Below, piece by piece: positions 1,560-38,505 of a stretch of 64,000 bases of DNA. Both the position numbers and the translations under genes were made by a program. Source of the stretch: Halosegnis longus (lineage in GTDB: Archaea; Halobacteriota; Halobacteria; Halobacteriales; Haloarculaceae); NCBI RefSeq assembly GCF_009663395.1, contig NZ_QKNW01000001.1, positions 2,046,001 to 2,110,000 on the forward strand, given 5' to 3'. Each line of letters starts with the position of its first letter. Position 1 is the stretch's first letter. The notes beneath the pieces are model-generated. The model ran no database searches and was not told the DNA's origin. It was given only the letters and a program-made list of their open reading frames with translations.

Positions 1560-2483
1560 CTACTCGGCGAGCAGTTCCTGCACGCACCGCCGGACGGCGT
1601 CGTCGCTCGACTCGTCGGGCTCCCAGCCGAGCGCCGAGAGCTTCTCGATGGAGAGACGCATCCGCGGCACGTCGCCGGTCCAGCCGCGCTCCCCGCCGGT
1701 GAACGTGTACTCGGGGTCGAGTCCCATCTCGTCGGCGACGATGTCGGCGATGGTCGTCACGCTCGTCGTCGTGCGCGTGCCGAGGTTGTAGGTGTTGACC
1801 GGCGCGTCGGCGTGTTCGACGACGTGACACATCGCGTCGACGCAGTCGTCGATGTGGAGATACGACTTCTCCTGTCGCCCGTCGCCGAGGATTTCGAGTT
1901 CGTCGGGCGACTCCTCCAGCTTCTGGATGAAGTCGGGGATGACAGAGCCGAGTTGGAGCCGCGGCCCGACGATGTTGGCGAACCGGAAGTTCCACACCGT
2001 GAAGCCGTGGCTGTGTGCGAACACCGAGAGCAGTCCCTCCTCGCCGAGCTTCGAGGCACCGTAAATCGAGATGGGTTCCAGCGGCGCGAAATCCTCCGGC
2101 GTCGGGCGCGGGGCTTCGCCGTAGACGACCGACGAGGAGGTAAAGGCGATGTTCTCGACGCCGACCGCGTGCATCCGCTCGACGACCGTCTCGGTGAGTT
2201 CGTTGTTGACGCGGTACTGCTCGATGTCGTCGCGCGCCGCGTTCTTGTCGGCCGCGAAGTGAAAGACGATGTCCGTCTCGGGCGTAATCGCCTCGGTGAC
2301 GGTCTCGCCGTCCGTGAGGTCACCCTCAACGACGGTGGCGTCCCCGTGCACCCAGTCGCGCTGGCTGTTGCGGAAGTCGTCGGCGACGACGACTTCGTTG
2401 TCAGCGACGAGTCGGTCAGTGAGATGGGAGCCGACGAAGCCCGCGCCGCCCGTGATGACGATTCGCTTGTCGTGGAGGTCCAT
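1560..2483 (-). CDS. NAD-dependent epimerase/dehydratase (extended SDR)
   Basis: 307 residues starting MDLHDKRIVITGGAGFVGS. The Rossmann motif GGAGFVG (about 11-17) binds NAD. SSSVVYGE and the active-site YGASK place it in the extended SDR family of UDP-glucose 4-epimerases and dTDP-glucose dehydratases. The exact substrate is not readable from motifs. The frame stays open upstream for 98 more codons, but that part has the composition of a shadow of the opposite gene, and the ATG at 2483 gives the canonical N-terminus. It is divergent from trm56 with about 70 bases between. A sugar-nucleotide role fits the nearby glycosyltransferase. Confidence 0.88.
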   Translation of the reverse strand: MDLHDKRIVITGGAGFVGSHLTDRLVADNEVVVADDFRNSQRDWVHGDATVVEGDLTDGETVTEAITPETDIVFHFAADKNAARDDIEQYRVNNELTETVVERMHAVGVENIAFTSSSVVYGEAPRPTPEDFAPLEPISIYGASKLGEEGLLSVFAHSHGFTVWNFRFANIVGPRLQLGSVIPDFIQKLEESPDELEILGDGRQEKSYLHIDDCVDAMCHVVEHADAPVNTYNLGTRTTTSVTTIADIVADEMGLDPEYTFTGGERGWTGDVPRMRLSIEKLSALGWEPDESSDDAVRRCVQELLAE

Positions 2484-2553
2484 ATCCCACGTCGCGAGCG
2501 CGCTCCCGTAGACGTTCCGAAAGCAGGAAGCCCCGCCGCTCGCGAGTACGGGT

Positions 2554-3090
2554 ATGAACGACTCCGAGGTCGTCGTCTGCCGGCTCAGCCACCGGCCGGG
2601 ACGGGACGACCGCATGACGACACACGTGGGGCTGACGGCGCGGGCACTCGGTGCTGACCGCGTCGTCTTTCCCGACAACGCCACCGGGTCGGCCGAGACG
2701 GTCCGAGACATCACCGACCGCTTCGGCGGCCCCTTCGAGGTCGAACTCAGCGGCGAGACGAAGGCGCTCGTCCGCAACTGGGAGGGGACGGTCGCCCACC
2801 TGACGATGTACGGACTCCCGGTGCAGGACGTGGAGACGGAGCTACGCGAGGCGGTCGCGGCCGAGCCGCTGTTGGTCGTCGTCGGGGGCGAAAAGGTCCC
2901 CTTCGAGGTGTACGATCGCGCCGACTACAACGTGGCCGTGACGAACCAGCCCCACTCCGAGATTGCGGGGCTGGCCGTGTTCCTCGACAGGGTGTTCGAC
3001 GGCGCGGAGCTGGCACAGTCGTGGGAGGATGCAGACCGGGTCGTCGTGCCGAAGGAGACCGGCAAGAAGGTCGTCGAACCGGACGAGTAG
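2554..3090 (+). CDS. trm56: tRNA (cytidine-56-2'-O)-methyltransferase, SPOUT class
   Basis: 178 residues. The N-terminal stretch CRLSHRPGRDDRMTTHVGL is characteristic of archaeal Trm56, which methylates the ribose of C56 in the T-loop of tRNA using S-adenosylmethionine. LLVVVGGEKVPFEVYD and NVAVTNQPHSEIAGLAVFLDR form the knotted SAM-binding C-terminal part of a SPOUT enzyme. Length is normal for the family. It starts at the ATG just after GTACGGGT and is divergent from the epimerase. A structured 160-base gap separates it from tfe. Confidence 0.9.
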   Translation: MNDSEVVVCRLSHRPGRDDRMTTHVGLTARALGADRVVFPDNATGSAETVRDITDRFGGPFEVELSGETKALVRNWEGTVAHLTMYGLPVQDVETELREAVAAEPLLVVVGGEKVPFEVYDRADYNVAVTNQPHSEIAGLAVFLDRVFDGAELAQSWEDADRVVVPKETGKKVVEPDE

Positions 3091-3096
3091 GGCAAA

Positions 3097-3163
3097 CAGG
3101 TGACACCCGCAGACCCCCGACCGGTGTGTCACGCGGTCACCTGAGTCGGCCGGGGCCGGCCAC
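3097..3163. repeat. Strong inverted repeats between trm56 and tfe
   Basis: CAGGTGAC at 3097-3104 and GTCACCTG at 3136-3143 are perfect inverted copies. Inside them GTGACACC (3100) can pair with GGTGTGTCAC (3123) with one small bulge. Just downstream GGCCGGGGCCGGCC is nearly self-complementary. No U-run follows, so a simple terminator is not obvious. It could be a processed 3' end of trm56 or a small structured RNA. Confidence 0.5.
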
Positions 3164-3219
3164 AGCGCACGGGGTCGGTGTGCCGCTATCGGTGATAAAC
3201 GCGGGGGGCTCCCGGAGGC

Positions 3220-3225
3220 TTTAAA
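3220..3225 (+). promoter_or_regulatory. TATA box of tfe
   Basis: TTTAAA centred about 28 bases before the tfe ATG. With the usual haloarchaeal spacing, transcription would start at or next to the A of the start codon, i.e. a leaderless mRNA. This decides the ATG at 3251. Confidence 0.6.
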
Positions 3226-3250
3226 CAACTTCCTCACCCTGTTTTAGGTA

Positions 3251-3787
3251 ATGGCGTACGATGACCTTCTGGAGAATCCAGTCATCCAAAAGTATCTCCA
3301 CGAGCTCGTCGGTCCGACGGGTATGCCGGTCGCGGCGGCACCGCCCGAGGGGGAAGTGACCGACGAGGAGTTGGCCGAGGAGTTGAACCTGGAGCTGAAC
3401 GCGGTGCGGCGCGCGCTGTTCATCCTCTATGAGAACGACCTCGCGAGCTACCGACGGCTCCGCGACGAGGATTCGGGGTGGCTCACCTATCTGTGGACCT
3501 TCGAGTACGAGAACATCCCCGAACAGCTCGAAGAGGAGATGCACCGACTGCTCGACGCGCTCGTCGAGCGACGCGAGTACGAACTCGAAAACGAGTTTTA
3601 CCTCTGTGAGCAGGACTCGATTCGCTTCGAGTTCGGCGAGGCGATGGAGTACGGCTTCGAGTGTCCCAACTGCGGCGAACAGCTGGTCGACATGAGCAAC
3701 GCGCGGCTCGTGGACGCCATGGACGAACGCATCGACTCGCTGCGCGATGAACTCCACCGCCACCCGGAGCAAGAGGCGGACGCCTGA
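3251..3787 (+). CDS. tfe: Transcription factor E, alpha subunit (TFE)
   Basis: 178 residues. Residues 1-80 form the extended winged helix typical of TFE/TFIIE-alpha, which stabilises the RNA polymerase pre-initiation complex and helps promoter opening. The C-terminal part should be a zinc ribbon: C119, C138 and C141 are present, but the fourth position of the usual first CxxC is Asp122 (CEQD), so only three of four ligands are Cys. The end is acidic and flexible. It overlaps the following DUF2110 gene by one base (TGATG), and that gene overlaps a lipoprotein gene by four, so the three are probably one operon. Confidence 0.93.
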   Translation: MAYDDLLENPVIQKYLHELVGPTGMPVAAAPPEGEVTDEELAEELNLELNAVRRALFILYENDLASYRRLRDEDSGWLTYLWTFEYENIPEQLEEEMHRLLDALVERREYELENEFYLCEQDSIRFEFGEAMEYGFECPNCGEQLVDMSNARLVDAMDERIDSLRDELHRHPEQEADA

Positions 3788-4464
3788 TGGTCGTTCTCGC
3801 GACGAAGCTCTACGTGGGCGGCGACGCCGGCGACCGCGCGCTCGACTCGCTCGACTCGCTGGTGGCCAACGACCTCGGCGACCTCGACGTGGAGTGGACC
3901 ACCGGCCTGCGCGACGACGACTTCCCGTCGGTGACGCTCACCGGCGACGACGCTCCCGTCGCGCGCAACGTCCTCACCGAGGGGTGGGGAGCGATTACAC
4001 CACACCGCGACGCCGGCGAGACGTACGTCGGGACGCTCGACTCGTGGGACGAGGACGGGTTCGTTCTCGACGCCGGCGAGCCGGTTCGTATCCCGACGGA
4101 CGAACTCGGTCTCGGGGCCGGCACGCCCTCGCAGATTCGGACCCGTTACGGGCTCGTCCAGCACGTGCCGCTGCGATTCGTCGAGGGCGAGGAGGGTGAG
4201 CCGGCGCGGCTCGCCGACGCGGAACGCGACCGACTCTACGACTGGACGCGCGCCGACAACGGCCGCGTCAACGTGAACTCCGCGACGCGCGCGGAGGTGC
4301 GTGCGACCGTTAATCGGTCCGGGCACGCCGAGGACATCATCACGGTCGAGCGGCTCGGCCTGCTCGAACAGAGTATCGTTTGCCGACCGGCGACGGACCC
4401 GCCGGGACTGTTGTCGGACATCGGTCCGCATCTCCCCGCGGAGATGCTCTGTATCATTCCATGA
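3787..4464 (+). CDS. DUF2110 family protein
   Basis: 225 residues, soluble, no signal peptide. The beginning LATKLYVGG and the segment around residues 77-105 (TYVGTLDSWDEDGFVLDAG) match archaeal DUF2110 proteins, which are commonly found directly downstream of tfe. The middle part looks like a small beta-barrel (S1/PUA-like in pattern), and residues 150-200 contain a helix-rich region. Function is unknown. The tight translational coupling to tfe argues for a role with transcription or RNA, but this is only context. Confidence 0.75.
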   Translation: MVVLATKLYVGGDAGDRALDSLDSLVANDLGDLDVEWTTGLRDDDFPSVTLTGDDAPVARNVLTEGWGAITPHRDAGETYVGTLDSWDEDGFVLDAGEPVRIPTDELGLGAGTPSQIRTRYGLVQHVPLRFVEGEEGEPARLADAERDRLYDWTRADNGRVNVNSATRAEVRATVNRSGHAEDIITVERLGLLEQSIVCRPATDPPGLLSDIGPHLPAEMLCIIP

Positions 4465-5312
4465 ACCGACGGCTCGCACTCGGACTCCTCGGTCTCGGCC
4501 TCCTCGCGCTCACCGCCGGGTGTACGAGCTTCCTCGGTCCCGGCGAACCGGACCCCGGCGACCTGACCGCGAACGAGACCTACGACTGGGACGCTGACGT
4601 CGATGCGAATCTCGACGTGAACAAGCGGAACGTGACCGCCGTCTTCGACATCGAGAACCGCACGGACGGGCTCGACGACTCGGACCCGACGTTCCGGTTC
4701 TACGGTCGCGGAACGCTCGCGACCGAGCAGCCACAGCGGCTCACGGCCGTCCAGTTCCAGTACGCGAACGGGACGCAGGTCGCCTTCGAGAGCGTCGACG
4801 GCGAGGCCCGTTCGGTCGTCACCTACACGAACGGAACGACGGCACAGCTTCCCGTCTTGTCCGTCGAGCGCACGAACGACCGAACCATCGTCCACCTGCC
4901 GACCAACGAGAGCGGACAGTTGGGCGTCACTCTCCCCAAGGATGGTAAGCAGGTCTCGCTGCCCGGCTACGTCGAGGGAAGCTATCAGATGCGGCTCCCC
5001 GAGAGCGCCCGCGTCGGCGTGCCGCTGCTCTCGCAGGTTCGGCCCGGAACCAGCGACCGAACGATGGCGAACGACCGACTCCTGCTCGCGTGGGAAGACG
5101 TTGACGCGCCGACGCTCGTCGTGCGCTACTACCTCCAGCGTGACCTGCTCCTGTTCGGTGGGCTCGCGGTCGGTGCGACGGTCATCGGACTCGGCGGCGC
5201 GCTCTACTACTACCGCCAACTGCGTGCGACCCAGAAGAAGCGCGAGGAGGTCGGCCTCGACATCGACATCGAGGACGACGACCGGAACCGACCCCCGCCG
5301 GGGATGGGATAG
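4461..5312 (+). CDS. Membrane-anchored haloarchaeal lipoprotein
   Basis: 283 residues. The N-terminus (MNRRLALGLLGLGLLALTAGC) is a signal peptide ending in a lipobox-like LTAGC, so Cys21 is probably lipidated after cleavage. Residues 30-230 form an extracellular beta-rich domain with several N-x-S/T sequons. A single membrane helix near the C-terminus (LLLFGGLAVGATVIGLGGAL) is followed by a charged cytoplasmic tail. I believe this is the family annotated DUF5803, from memory. The ATG overlaps the DUF2110 stop by four bases (ATGA). An upstream in-frame extension of 27 codons was rejected because it removes the signal peptide. Confidence 0.75.
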   Translation: MNRRLALGLLGLGLLALTAGCTSFLGPGEPDPGDLTANETYDWDADVDANLDVNKRNVTAVFDIENRTDGLDDSDPTFRFYGRGTLATEQPQRLTAVQFQYANGTQVAFESVDGEARSVVTYTNGTTAQLPVLSVERTNDRTIVHLPTNESGQLGVTLPKDGKQVSLPGYVEGSYQMRLPESARVGVPLLSQVRPGTSDRTMANDRLLLAWEDVDAPTLVVRYYLQRDLLLFGGLAVGATVIGLGGALYYYRQLRATQKKREEVGLDIDIEDDDRNRPPPGMG

Positions 5313-33430: not shown

Positions 33431-33455
33431 CCGCTGGCTGTGTGACTGCGGAGAT

Positions 33456-34061
33456 ATGAGCACCGACGAGAGCGCCGAGGGCGACAGAGAGCTACCAGAG
33501 GAGTTCTACAGCGAGGAGCGCTGGAACAACTGGCTCACCCGCCTCGAAGACGAGGATATCGACCCCGAAAACGAGGACTCCGCTCGGCTCCTGTTGAACC
33601 TACAGGACGACGCCGCCATCGCCGTCGCGAAGATCATCACCGCCTACCGCGACGACCTCCTCGACGAAGACGAAGCCCTCGACGAACTCGAAGCGTTCGC
33701 CGCCGTCGTCCTCGACGACGTGGCAATCGACGACGAGGACAAGGCGATGCTCGTCGACTCCGTCCAGATGGCGCTCCACTGTGTCGCCGCCTCCGCCGAG
33801 GCGTTCGTCGTCAGCGGCACCCCAGAGGAGGGAACCGTCGCGGCCAACATCCAGGCGGCCGTCGACGCCGAGGCCGACGAGGAGTTCGACACCGCGTTCA
33901 ACTACTGCGCGCAGGCCGGCACGCTCGTCATCGACGGCACCGACACCGACGTGAGCAGCATCGCCGCCGACCTCGAGTACGGCTACGTCGCCGAGTGGGT
34001 CAACGGCCTCGACTCCCTGCAGGACGCGCTCTCGGACCCCGAGCTCGTCGAGGAAGCCTGA
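33456..34061 (+). CDS. DUF2150 family protein
   Basis: 201 residues, very acidic, soluble and all-helical in appearance. [17 protein letters not shown] near the start and [18 protein letters not shown], then [16 protein letters not shown] and a C-terminal [17 protein letters not shown] fit the haloarchaeal DUF2150 family. No catalytic motif. Own promoter; followed after 70 bases by the pilin-like gene. Function unknown. Confidence 0.75.
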
Positions 34062-34098
34062 GCCGGTCGCCGTTCTCCCGACGACTCACCCCACGACG

Positions 34099-34104
34099 CT
34101 TATA
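34099..34104 (+). promoter_or_regulatory. TATA box of the repeat-tailed pilin-like gene
   Basis: CTTATA in GACGCTTATACGTC, about 32 bases before the ATG at 34134. It favours 34134 over an in-frame GTG at 34110, which would lie too close to the box. Confidence 0.5.
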
Positions 34105-34133
34105 CGTCCGTGTCGCGAACCAGTACCAACTGT

Positions 34134-35969
34134 ATGTTCCGGGATGATACACGCGGCCAGTCGGTGCAGGTCGGCGTTATCATCCTCTTTTCATTCGCGA
34201 TTATCGCGTTTACCTCCTATCAGGCCGTCATCGTCCCACAGCAGAACCAACAGGTCGAGTTTGACCACAATCAGGCAGTCCAGCGCGACATCGTCGACAC
34301 GCGCAACACCATCGTCCGTGCCGCCAACGCGGGCGAGAACGGCGCATCCTCAATCCAACTCGGCGAGAACTTCCCCGCCCGCATCTTCGCACTCAACGCT
34401 CCGTCGGCGAACGGTCGGTTCGCGACGACCGACCGCGGCGATATCACGGTGACCAACAGCGACGGCAACGTCTGTCCCGGTCCCGACCAGACGGTTCGCG
34501 CGAGCTACACGCCCAACTACAGCTACTACAACAACGCGCCGACGACGAAGTACGAGAACACGTTCGTGTTCAACGAGTTCGACGACGGGACCGAACGCGT
34601 CGAAACACGCGCCCGATTGCTGTTCGGGGAAGACGATGCCAGTACCACAGGCGTCGTGAATCTCGTCGCGCTGTTCGGTGACACCCAACAGTCGGGCACC
34701 GAGTCGATTTCCGTCGACCTCTACAGCGGAACGACGAGTAGCCAGACCGTCACCGACCCCGTAGTCACGCTCCCGACGAGTGCGGAGGCACCGACGTGGG
34801 CCGAAGCCCTCGGCTACGAATCGGTGTCCGACCTCGAGAGCGCGCCCGGCGTTGACGGTCTCTCGGTCGCGAGCGGCGAGGTAACCATCGACCTCGCCGG
34901 CGACTACGACATCGTCTGTACGGAAGTCGGGATGGATTCGACGCCGCCGAGCGGGCTCGCCGCTATCGCACCGATTCCGGGTGGTGGCGGTGGTGGAGGC
35001 GGCGGTGGTGGCGGTGGTGGCAACAATCCACTTCCTGAGAATGCGGTTGCATTTGATGATGCAAACACGAACGGCCAGTACGATTCCGACGAGACAACGT
35101 ATGAAGAGTCCGACTTCGACGGAAATGCCAATACTGGACCGAATGGTGACTTTAGTGGTGAGAATATTGTCCTTAGAAAAGATATCTCCGTCAGTAAAAT
35201 TGATATGTCGGCTGTATCGCTCACCGCAAATGATGTCAGTATTGATGCCACTAATGCTGGTTTAAATATTGGCGTTGATGAAACACTAAATCTCGCTGGC
35301 TCCACACTGACATCTGCATCAGGAAAACAAACCACGCTCAGCGGAGGATCAGCCGATATTTCAGGCGCAACGATTGACTCTGGATCTGGGGTGAAAATAG
35401 AACCATCTGGAGAGGTGGATGCCACTGGAGCAACAATTACGTCTGCTCAGGGGAAACAGATAACACTCACTGGCGGACCGATTGACACCTCCGGTGCGAC
35501 GATTGAATCGGGGTCTGGAGTGAAGGTTAAGTCGTCACAGTCTGTTGATGTCTCGGATGCGAGAATTACGTCTGCTCGGGGGAAACAGATATCTCTGACC
35601 GGGCAATCTCTAACCGGTCAAAATGCCGAGATAATCTCTGGATCTGACCTAAAACTCTCGACAAGTCGTGGAATGGACCTCCGCAGTGCAACACTGGAAG
35701 TGGCAAACGGTAAAAGTATGAACCTCAACGCGAATCAGAATCGCCTGGGATTCAGTATCGATATCGGCGATGCAAAACTCATCTCACAAAAACAGATATC
35801 GGCCTCCGCAAAGGGTGGGTCGCTTCAGTTCAACACCGCTTCCAGTACCGGCCCCGGAACGCGAATTGTCAACCCAAATAATAACATGGGGCAGTTCCTG
35901 ATTCTTCAAGAAGGGGACAAAGAGCCAGAAAATGGAAGCCCAGAAAAGGGAAGCATAATTGTCCAATAA
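34134..35969 (+). CDS. Pilin-like surface protein with a 43-residue-repeat tail on a polyglycine linker
   Basis: 611 residues in two unlike halves. Residues 1-282: a short basic N-terminus (FRDDTRGQS), one hydrophobic helix (VGVIILFSFAIIAFTSYQAV) and an extracellular beta domain; this is the DUF7289/archaeal pilin-like type, high GC with haloarchaeal codons. Residues 283-296 are 14 glycines. Residues 297-611 are AT-richer, Ser/Thr/Asn-rich, and contain tandem repeats of exactly 43 residues (from 390, 433, 476 and a degenerate 519), each with SGKQ/QGKQ and GATIDSGSG-like parts, which predicts a parallel beta-helix. Probably exposed on the cell surface as an adhesin or pilus subunit. The tail composition suggests it was acquired separately. 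Confidence 0.75.
   Translation: MFRDDTRGQSVQVGVIILFSFAIIAFTSYQAVIVPQQNQQVEFDHNQAVQRDIVDTRNTIVRAANAGENGASSIQLGENFPARIFALNAPSANGRFATTDRGDITVTNSDGNVCPGPDQTVRASYTPNYSYYNNAPTTKYENTFVFNEFDDGTERVETRARLLFGEDDASTTGVVNLVALFGDTQQSGTESISVDLYSGTTSSQTVTDPVVTLPTSAEAPTWAEALGYESVSDLESAPGVDGLSVASGEVTIDLAGDYDIVCTEVGMDSTPPSGLAAIAPIPGGGGGGGGGGGGGGNNPLPENAVAFDDANTNGQYDSDETTYEESDFDGNANTGPNGDFSGENIVLRKDISVSKIDMSAVSLTANDVSIDATNAGLNIGVDETLNLAGSTLTSASGKQTTLSGGSADISGATIDSGSGVKIEPSGEVDATGATITSAQGKQITLTGGPIDTSGATIESGSGVKVKSSQSVDVSDARITSARGKQISLTGQSLTGQNAEIISGSDLKLSTSRGMDLRSATLEVANGKSMNLNANQNRLGFSIDIGDAKLISQKQISASAKGGSLQFNTASSTGPGTRIVNPNNNMGQFLILQEGDKEPENGSPEKGSIIVQ
34980..35021 (+). repeat. Polyglycine-coding run (14 codons)
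   Basis: Fourteen GGN codons (GGT, GGC, GGA mixed) join the GC-rich pilin-like half to the AT-rich half of the same gene. The mixed codons show it is a protein-level linker rather than a fresh slippage product. Confidence 0.85.
35301..35816 (+). repeat. Four 129-bp units coding 43-residue beta-helix repeats
   Basis: Units begin at 35301, 35430, 35559 and 35688, exactly 129 bases apart. Units 2 and 3 share a nearly identical stretch starting ATTACGTCTGCTC at 35436 and 35565. The protein pattern is [SA]-T-[LI]-T-S-A-x-G-K-Q then a second coil with A-T-I-[DE]-S-G-S-G-V-K. Unit 4 keeps only the first part. Confidence 0.85.
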
Positions 35970-36167
35970 TTAAAAATAATTTATGCATATTTAGATATAG
36001 AATCTAAACCGTTGACTCCATGTATAGGCATTTTAGCTTACTTCAGAACACATCCGGTAGTTACTCTATAAGATATCTTGTTAGTAGATTCTACGAATAT
36101 TGCATGCGCGTCTTCCGGAGTCTGTCCCCACCGAAACTTGTTTTATACAAGTAGGATAAATAACCGC
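35970..36167. other. AT-rich intergenic island
   Basis: 198 bases of much lower GC than the surroundings, with no credible ORF. TAGAATCTA (35998-36006) and TAGATTCTA (36085-36093) are perfect inverted copies 78 bases apart, and AAGATATCTT (36070-36079) is a perfect palindrome. The downstream end holds the TATA box of the next gene. It continues the low-GC stretch that begins in the tail of the preceding gene. Confidence 0.6.
36141..36147 (+). promoter_or_regulatory. TATA box of the polyaspartate pilin gene
   Basis: TTTTATA centred 24 bases before the GTG at 36168. It places the transcript start at the GTG and so decides this start over an ATG at 36078. Confidence 0.6.
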
Positions 36168-37100
<933 letters not shown>

Positions 37101-37167: not shown

Positions 37168-38505
37168 ATGACCGATGTCGGAATCGACGCGGCGGAGATA
37201 TGGACCGGCAAGCTCAAATTGGACTTAGCGGAGACGTTCGCGCCCGAGAAGGGCGACGACCCCGGCAAGTACACGAAGGGACTCGGCCTATACGAGTCCT
37301 CGTTCCCGGACACGTACGAGGATATCGTCACGATGGGGGCCAACGCCTGCAAGCGGCTGATGGAGCGCAACGACCTCGAGCCCGATGATATCGGGCGTAT
37401 CGACGTGGCGACGGAGTCGTCGTTCGATAACTCCAAGCCGATTTCGACGTACATCGCAGGCTGTCTCGAACAGACCTTCGACGGCGACTTCCACCACGCC
37501 AACAAGGGCGAACGGAAGTTCGCGTGTGTCGCAGGGACACAGGCCATCGACGACGCGTACAACTGGATTCGCGCGGGTCGGAATCGCGGCCGGGCAGCAA
37601 TCGTCGTCGCGACGGATACCGCACTCTACGCGCGCGGCGATCCCGGCGAGGCAACGCAGGGTGCGGGTGCGGTCGCGATGCTCATCTCCGAGGACCCGTC
37701 GCTGGTGACGCTGTCCGACGAGCAGGGGTACGGGAGCGCCGACGAGACGGACTTCCTGAAGCCGAACCAGCAGTTCCCGAGCGTCGACGGCAAACGCTCC
37801 GTGCAGGTGTATCTCGCGCGGATGCGCGAGGCCGTCGAGGACTACGAGTCCGTCGCGGGCGAAATCCACCCCGACGACTTCGTGTACGCGCCGTTCCACA
37901 CCCCGTTCCCGGGGATGGTGCGGAAGGCCGCCCTGCTCGCGTACCGACACATCACCCGCGACACGGAAATCGAGGAGGCGCTGGCCGAACAGATCGGAAT
38001 GCAGCCCCGCGAGACCGAGTTCGACGGCGAGGAGGCGTTCCTCGATGCAGTCAGCGACTACACCGACGAACTGAAAGAGACGACGCGGTACCAGGAGTGG
38101 TACGAGGCGACAATCGACCCGACGCTCGATATCGCCCGCCACGTCGGCAACTGGTACACCGGCTCGGTCCACGTCGCGCGGCTGGCGGCGCTCAAGCGCG
38201 CTCACGAAGCGGGCCGTGAGATGACCGACGAGCGGTTGTTCGTCGCCTCATACGGCTCCGGCGCGCAGGCGGAGGTCCACCACGAGACCGTCCAGCCGGG
38301 CTGGAAGGACGAGATTGCACAGCTCAACATCGACGAACAGATCGACGCGCGCTACGACCTGGATTTCGCCGAGTACGAGACGGTCCACGACGCCCACGAC
38401 CACTCGAAGGACCGCGATTACGAGGAGTTCACGGCACCGGACGCGGAGTTCGTCTTCGACGGCTGGGGGCGCATGGGCGAGCGCAAGTACCGCTACGTCG
38501 AGTGA
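37168..38505 (+). CDS. Hydroxymethylglutaryl-CoA synthase
   Basis: 445 residues. The catalytic Cys lies in KFACVAGTQAIDDAYNWI, the catalytic His in FHTPFPGMVRKAALLAYRH, and ATESSFDNSKPISTYI and VATDTALYARG match the thiolase-fold HMG-CoA synthases. It condenses acetoacetyl-CoA with acetyl-CoA in the mevalonate pathway that feeds archaeal isoprenoid lipids, carotenoids and quinones. Length is typical of the haloarchaeal/eukaryotic-like type. Own promoter. Confidence 0.93.
   Translation: MTDVGIDAAEIWTGKLKLDLAETFAPEKGDDPGKYTKGLGLYESSFPDTYEDIVTMGANACKRLMERNDLEPDDIGRIDVATESSFDNSKPISTYIAGCLEQTFDGDFHHANKGERKFACVAGTQAIDDAYNWIRAGRNRGRAAIVVATDTALYARGDPGEATQGAGAVAMLISEDPSLVTLSDEQGYGSADETDFLKPNQQFPSVDGKRSVQVYLARMREAVEDYESVAGEIHPDDFVYAPFHTPFPGMVRKAALLAYRHITRDTEIEEALAEQIGMQPRETEFDGEEAFLDAVSDYTDELKETTRYQEWYEATIDPTLDIARHVGNWYTGSVHVARLAALKRAHEAGREMTDERLFVASYGSGAQAEVHHETVQPGWKDEIAQLNIDEQIDARYDLDFAEYETVHDAHDHSKDRDYEEFTAPDAEFVFDGWGRMGERKYRYVE

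Follow-up and report, generated by a model that had tools for sequence, protein, structure and literature searches.

The product of the gene at 34134..35969 of the window (the whole 64-kb stretch of Halosegnis longus DNA analysed here) is probably a type IV pilin-like surface protein of modular build, whose locus is one of hypervariable tails. At the level of sequence, our comparisons show a conserved carrier at a fixed address, changing tails and, at the linker, a single recent replacement; the gene resembles a fixed mount for exchanged surface heads (the tails in the terms used below). As the first-pass annotation had stated, a single frame without any stop joins a pilin-like half through a 14-glycine linker to an AT-rich half, and the base composition does switch at the linker. 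GC is 0.476 at positions 35001-36000, the lowest-GC kilobase of the window, versus 0.63 at 34001-35000, and third-position GC (GC3) drops at the linker from 0.81 in the head to about 0.44-0.45 in the tail. Neither Pfam nor NCBIfam contained a family covering head or tail, and among open-licence papers we found none on this locus. A sigma-70 promoter scan was set aside, being uninformative in archaea. The features discussed below are listed in Table 1.

Table 1. Positions in the window of the gene, its parts and its neighbours
Feature	Position	Strand	Basis or remark
Whole gene, 611 aa: pilin-like head, poly-Gly and beta-solenoid tail	34134..35969	+	open frame, 0 stops
Conserved head domain, residues 3-269	34140..34940	+	profile match
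Leader peptide MFRDDTRG	34134..34157	+	predicted prepilin-peptidase cut after G8, +1 Gln; putative cleavage
Hydrophobic N-terminal helix QSVQVGVIILFSFAIIAFTSYQAVIV	34158..34235	+	predicted helix 7-65
14-Gly linker, residues 283-296	34980..35021	+	codon run; H. rubeus homology ends at 35020
Tail, 315 aa, predicted beta-solenoid	35022..35966	+	AF2, family alignment
EF-hand-like loop DANTNGQYDSDE, start of tail module	35058..35093	+	12-residue EF-hand spacing
High-confidence solenoid core, tail residues 81-240	35262..35741	+	pLDDT 80-98
Three 129-nt-spaced repeat copies, two rungs each	35286..35602	+	starts 35286, 35415, 35544
Block with no homologous DNA in H. rubeus	35020..37059	.	179 bp of the second pilin gene excepted; flanks 90-92% identical
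DUF2150 gene, fixed upstream neighbour	33432..34061	+	Pfam PF09920, E 3e-57
Second pilin-like gene, Pilin_N PF07790	36168..37100	+	Thr/Pro-rich stretch, poly-Asp C-terminus
HMG-CoA-synthase-like gene, fixed downstream neighbour	37168..38505	+	97.5% identical in H. rubeus

The pilin-like head

A class III signal peptide followed by a hydrophobic N-terminal helix is present (MFRDDTRG-QSVQVGVIILF...), and the helix reaches a pLDDT of about 85 over residues 11-30 of the AF2 model. R7, Q9, Q12 and G14 are the same in all of 37 aligned heads, and position 8 holds G or A in 36 of them. A glutamine at position +1 has also been described for EppA-processed euryarchaeal pilins (PMC4371748). The protein has no match to the N_methyl motif (IPR012902) in Pfam or NCBIfam, and none to Pilin_N (PF07790) above the Pfam cut-off. 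Because the AF2 model of the head (beta-rich, mean pLDDT 53.4) is poor beyond the N-terminal helix, a pilin fold of this domain is at most putative; Foldseek returned nothing usable for the model. With the first 280 residues as query, the head was found, within the family, in 129 of 146 genomes and 20 of 22 genera. It is also present in most sampled genomes of the order, with weaker matches further out in the phylum.

The genome encodes one Peptidase_A24 (prepilin peptidase) gene and several T2SSE ATPases. A paralogue of the head in the same genome (C1:831892-832728; profile E 1e-42) lies directly after pilB and pilC, both named from their sequence, with the position of pilB being that of one T2SSE match. 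The order pilB-pilC-head recurs in two other genomes (G012 and G021), and in another one (G083) the head stands beside pilB-pilC in divergent orientation. By association, these paralogues support a pilus-related role of the head.

It is conceivable, if on the whole doubtful, that the protein is a membrane-anchored one that borrows a pilin-type signal peptide, never enters a filament and serves as a monomeric or S-layer-associated adhesin stalk. Such a protein would be at home at a locus that, like that of the window, has no assembly genes (pilB and pilC are absent); the longest tails behind the head, with up to 2414 aa, are hard to fit into a pilus shaft, and most predicted archaeal prepilin-peptidase substrates have unknown roles (PMC4371748). 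The occurrence of head paralogues next to pilB-pilC in the four genomes named above argues against it, as do the invariant residues at the site where an assembly-type helix starts.

The solenoid tail and its relatives

Sixteen tail-family sequences were aligned. The AF2 model of the window tail is all beta (mean pLDDT 79.7, pTM 0.83), with strands starting at tail residues 73, 95, 117, 138, 160, 181, 203, 224 and 244, i.e. at a spacing of 20-22 residues. The model is thus beta-helix-like, as had been anticipated, and the tail fits a parallel beta-solenoid as its predicted fold class. Given a strand every 21-22 residues, the 43-residue repeat corresponds to two solenoid rungs; about nine rungs are predicted in total, and the 129-nt repeats span only about three units of the solenoid. 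The first-pass annotation had called these repeats exact. This holds for their 129-nt spacing but not for the copies, whose identity to the reference copy, taken over 59 nt, is 61% and 78%, and Tandem Repeats Finder did not report a 129-nt array. The repeat is old and lies at the protein level, and a recent DNA duplication is not its source. The accompanying proposal that the surface varies as repeat units are gained or lost finds no support: there are no exact repeats, and what demonstrably varies is the whole tail.

Foldseek gave no significant structural match for the tail in the PDB, and the best match in a viral library had an E-value of 0.006 and a TM of 0.26. Filamentous haemagglutinin repeats were not matched by Pfam in the window tail, though a Haloarcula relative is annotated as containing them. 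Within the EF-hand-like loop, all 16 tails have D13 and G18, and at least 90% of them have D21 and E24; the pattern is present in many carriers of the tail module, and the loop may bind calcium.

The tail profile matches 60 of the 391 genomes of the class (21 of 86 genera) and one further genome elsewhere in the phylum. At least three carriers of the tail family can be distinguished. The pilin-like head carries it in about 15 genomes, which belong to several genera and to four family codes; the other two carriers, named by eye, are short secreted proteins whose N-terminus is TasA/SipW-like and another secreted type that is Ig-like. Head and tail modules also occur separately and in other combinations. 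In the 30 residues preceding the tail module, Gly and Ser amount to 31%, versus 20% overall. The gene that comes closest to the window gene in design (L192 232-2268, genome G397, from another haloarchaeal family) consists of the head, 15 glycines and a beta-solenoid tail at even GC. Both observations make domain exchange at Gly-rich linkers plausible.

This distribution bears on the suggestion that the gene is a one-off chimera, with a repeat adhesin taken from a virus, a plasmid or a bacterium and varied as 43-residue units come and go. The abrupt shift of GC and GC3 at the linker would be expected from such an event, and one head-plus-tail relative is indeed located on an IS-rich Haloarcula plasmid. 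We nevertheless regard this origin as unlikely, given the many genomes and several carriers of the tail family, the lack of any phage or viral relative and the inexact repeats. Since head and solenoid tail are combined in about 15 genomes, the design is no one-off. It was initially not recognised as a described haloarchaeal design, a view left unsupported by the same architecture in several genera, mostly at near-uniform GC, which is most of what the first-pass annotation had named as counter-evidence. A viral or phage origin of the tail was rejected, as there was no phage match and no relative of either tail or head on viral contigs.

The plasmid gene just mentioned (L056; pHsi204 76961-79270, Haloarcula sinaiiensis) is a head-plus-solenoid gene annotated as 'hemagglutinin repeat-containing protein' and is surrounded by IS1595, IS630, IS5 and IS110 transposases. 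It is possible that this plasmid is a vehicle for tail transfer.

Tail replacement and turnover at a fixed address

In H. rubeus F17-44 (L003), a head 94% identical to that of the window is followed by 15 glycines and then by an unrelated tail. Both flanks of the gene are colinear between the two genomes. The alignment ends at 35020, at the very end of the poly-Gly codon run, and restarts at 37059, with 179 bp of the second pilin gene as the sole alignment in between. Of the 123 pairs in which head identity reaches 80% or more, no other pair lacks a tail match. In the head tree the two heads are sisters with strong support, and the tail of the outgroup G086 is 61% identical to that of H. rubeus. 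By parsimony, the tail change is therefore placed on the window's branch, and these comparisons show that an older Ig-like tail was replaced by the beta-solenoid after the split from H. rubeus. The earlier claim that the tail was gained from elsewhere is thus borne out as far as a replacement is concerned, but not with regard to a viral or non-haloarchaeal source.

In most other head-plus-solenoid proteins GC3 is nearly equal in head and tail, exceptions being the genus-mate G087 and, mildly, two low-GC genomes. AT-richness as a trait of the tail family was rejected for this reason, the other tails matching their heads in GC3, and the AT-rich tail of the window therefore suggests a donor of lower GC. 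No donor close to the tail came to light, and the best long matches reach about 29-34% identity; a scan of 84,980 genomes matched H. rubeus alone, through its head. Intragenomic shuffling was rejected, since the genome holds a single copy of the tail. We also rejected a co-exchange of the tail and the second pilin gene as a cognate pair. The latter is 57-65% identical to the same-site gene of two relatives, and the three pairs are about equally distant (57, 65 and 56%), although H. rubeus and G086 share their tail type.

The acidic ends of the second pilin differ at this site: the window has poly-Asp (a 9-nt unit in 8.3 copies at 37022-37096); at the loci compared with it (L003 9736-10344 and L057), the end is poly-Glu in H. 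rubeus and Asp/Ala in G086.

The gene is framed by DUF2150 on one side and, on the other, by the gene at 37168..38505 that we take to be HMG-CoA-synthase-like and that neighbours the head in most genomes of the family. A head gene was present in 106 of 108 intervals between these neighbours, that of the window included, a count that describes the site and is no unbiased rate, as the intervals were picked mostly via head-search matches; the intervals L165 and L166 are without a head gene. The site is empty in several g7 and g19 genomes, with only about 120-290 bp between the neighbours. Some genomes carry two or three tandem heads at the locus. In other families, head-plus-solenoid genes stand between the same two neighbours (L181, L182, L187 and L192).

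At three loci of g6 genomes with three tandem heads each (L157, L158 and L159), the tail of the middle head exceeds 2200 aa. At two loci that are otherwise conserved (L067 of G024 and L065 of G021) the head gene is in two frames, possibly reflecting decay, a programmed change or a sequencing error.

Compared between species, the part after the head varies from Big_1/invasin Ig to PKD, unnamed Ig-like or beta-solenoid. Pfam matched Big_1 in 51, PKD_4 in 17 and Invasin_D3 in 7 of 93 tails, and nothing in that of the window. With homology and families judged on the last 150 residues, C-terminal homology was seen in 76-79% of pairs at a head identity of 80% or more and in 14-18% of pairs at a head identity of 60-80%. 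Clustering the tails by any overlap resulted in a single giant cluster, via shared Ig stalks. The head tree requires a minimum of 37 switches between the 11 C-terminal families, a number valid for these clusters only, as single linkage may merge tail families. Shuffled labels gave 48-62 changes, which indicates inheritance plus frequent tail change. In 93 of 111 genes, the tail has a lower GC3 than the head.

One could argue that head and tail always descend together and that tail homology is lost through the sheer speed of divergence. Surface domains are quick to evolve, and the tail families do retain some phylogenetic signal, as the count relative to the shuffles indicates. However, the tails of the window and H. 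rubeus have nothing in common despite 94% identical heads and flanks of at least 90% identity, relatives of the window tail remain recognisable in other genera and families, and the outgroup has retained a rubeus-type tail, so that divergence without exchange is very improbable. An assembly artefact or decayed fusion, to which the abrupt shift in composition might be ascribed, is next to negligible in view of the open frame, the colinearity with H. rubeus on both sides and the same architecture in about 15 other genomes.

For the modular pilin-like protein that we favour, the following course can be envisaged. The head would be exported and cut by the prepilin peptidase behind its short leader, and the hydrophobic helix would hold it in the membrane or build it into a pilus or pseudopilus. 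Beyond the poly-Gly linker, which would act as a flexible spacer, the EF-hand-like loop and a solenoid presumably stabilised by calcium would be displayed, most likely as a ligand-binding or contact module. Tails would probably be swapped when the conserved flanks, or else the Gly-rich linkers, recombine, and different tails may bring about different adhesion, partner recognition or virus susceptibility or escape. Tentatively, the site flanked by DUF2150 and the HMG-CoA-synthase-like gene might even be a class-wide haloarchaeal surface-identity locus, at which tail exchange between strains and species via the flanks would set cell-cell recognition, mating or virus range.

Relation to known systems

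Haloarchaea mate and fuse with members of other species and fall prey to many viruses; to our knowledge, the haloarchaeal proteins that decide on contact are largely unknown. A near-universal gene with a constant membrane end, a fast-changing exposed end and a fixed address is a testable candidate for a contact protein. It would carry the modular-pilin idea from bacteria into archaea and would provide a haloarchaeal parallel to the VARTIG genes of the Thermococcales. By our analysis, and in part by description, the locus works like modular pilins, ComZ and VARTIG, without a full match to their defining features.

In the PilV shufflon of plasmid R64, a constant pilin N-terminus is combined with an exchangeable C-terminus. 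The window locus shares a constant pilin-type N-terminus and a changeable C-terminus with this system. As for shufflon features, there is a single tail copy in the genome, no long inverted repeats were found at the gene, and no recombinase is adjacent to it, its neighbours being the DUF2150, Pilin_N and HMG-CoA-synthase-like genes.

Modular pilins are established in bacteria (PMC8179133). Streptococcus sanguinis PilB (PMC8179133) resembles the window protein in its pilin-type N-terminus with a grafted module, the short linker and the great variety of modules. The window protein differs in being archaeal, in its head of about 270 aa, in the missing N_methyl match and in its tail family, and its assembly into a filament is putative. 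ComZ of Thermus thermophilus is a pilin with a large beta-solenoid that binds DNA and was proposed to reside at the pilus tip (PMC6561018). Both proteins are pilin-like with a beta-solenoid, which in ComZ is built into the pilin framework, whereas the predicted one of the window protein is a C-terminal module behind the Gly linker; a sequence relation between the two was not found.

The VARTIG genes of the Thermococcales encode a large Ig protein (arCOG07710) followed by a variable set of genes, and their authors did not find a close counterpart in other archaea (PMC8416519). A constant N-terminal and a hypervariable C-terminal part, with apparent exchange between strains or species, are common to VARTIG and the window locus. 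Unlike VARTIG, the carrier at the window locus is pilin-like and lies between fixed neighbours, so that the two are set apart by carrier, fold and lineage as described.

Haloferax volcanii PilB4/PilC4 were reported together with two large co-regulated pilins (PMC4371748). The window gene, being away from pilB-pilC, differs from these. By description, they are like the paralogue at C1:831892-832728 of the same genome, which is likewise large, pilin-like and beside pilB-pilC. Adjoining pilB-pilC and this head paralogue is a surface-type protein of 1150 aa (C1:827700-831152; in L004 at 1701-5153 on the minus strand), in which many imperfect repeats rich in aromatic residues and Arg (RYRWERT, QYRWHHT) are followed by a PKD-like part.
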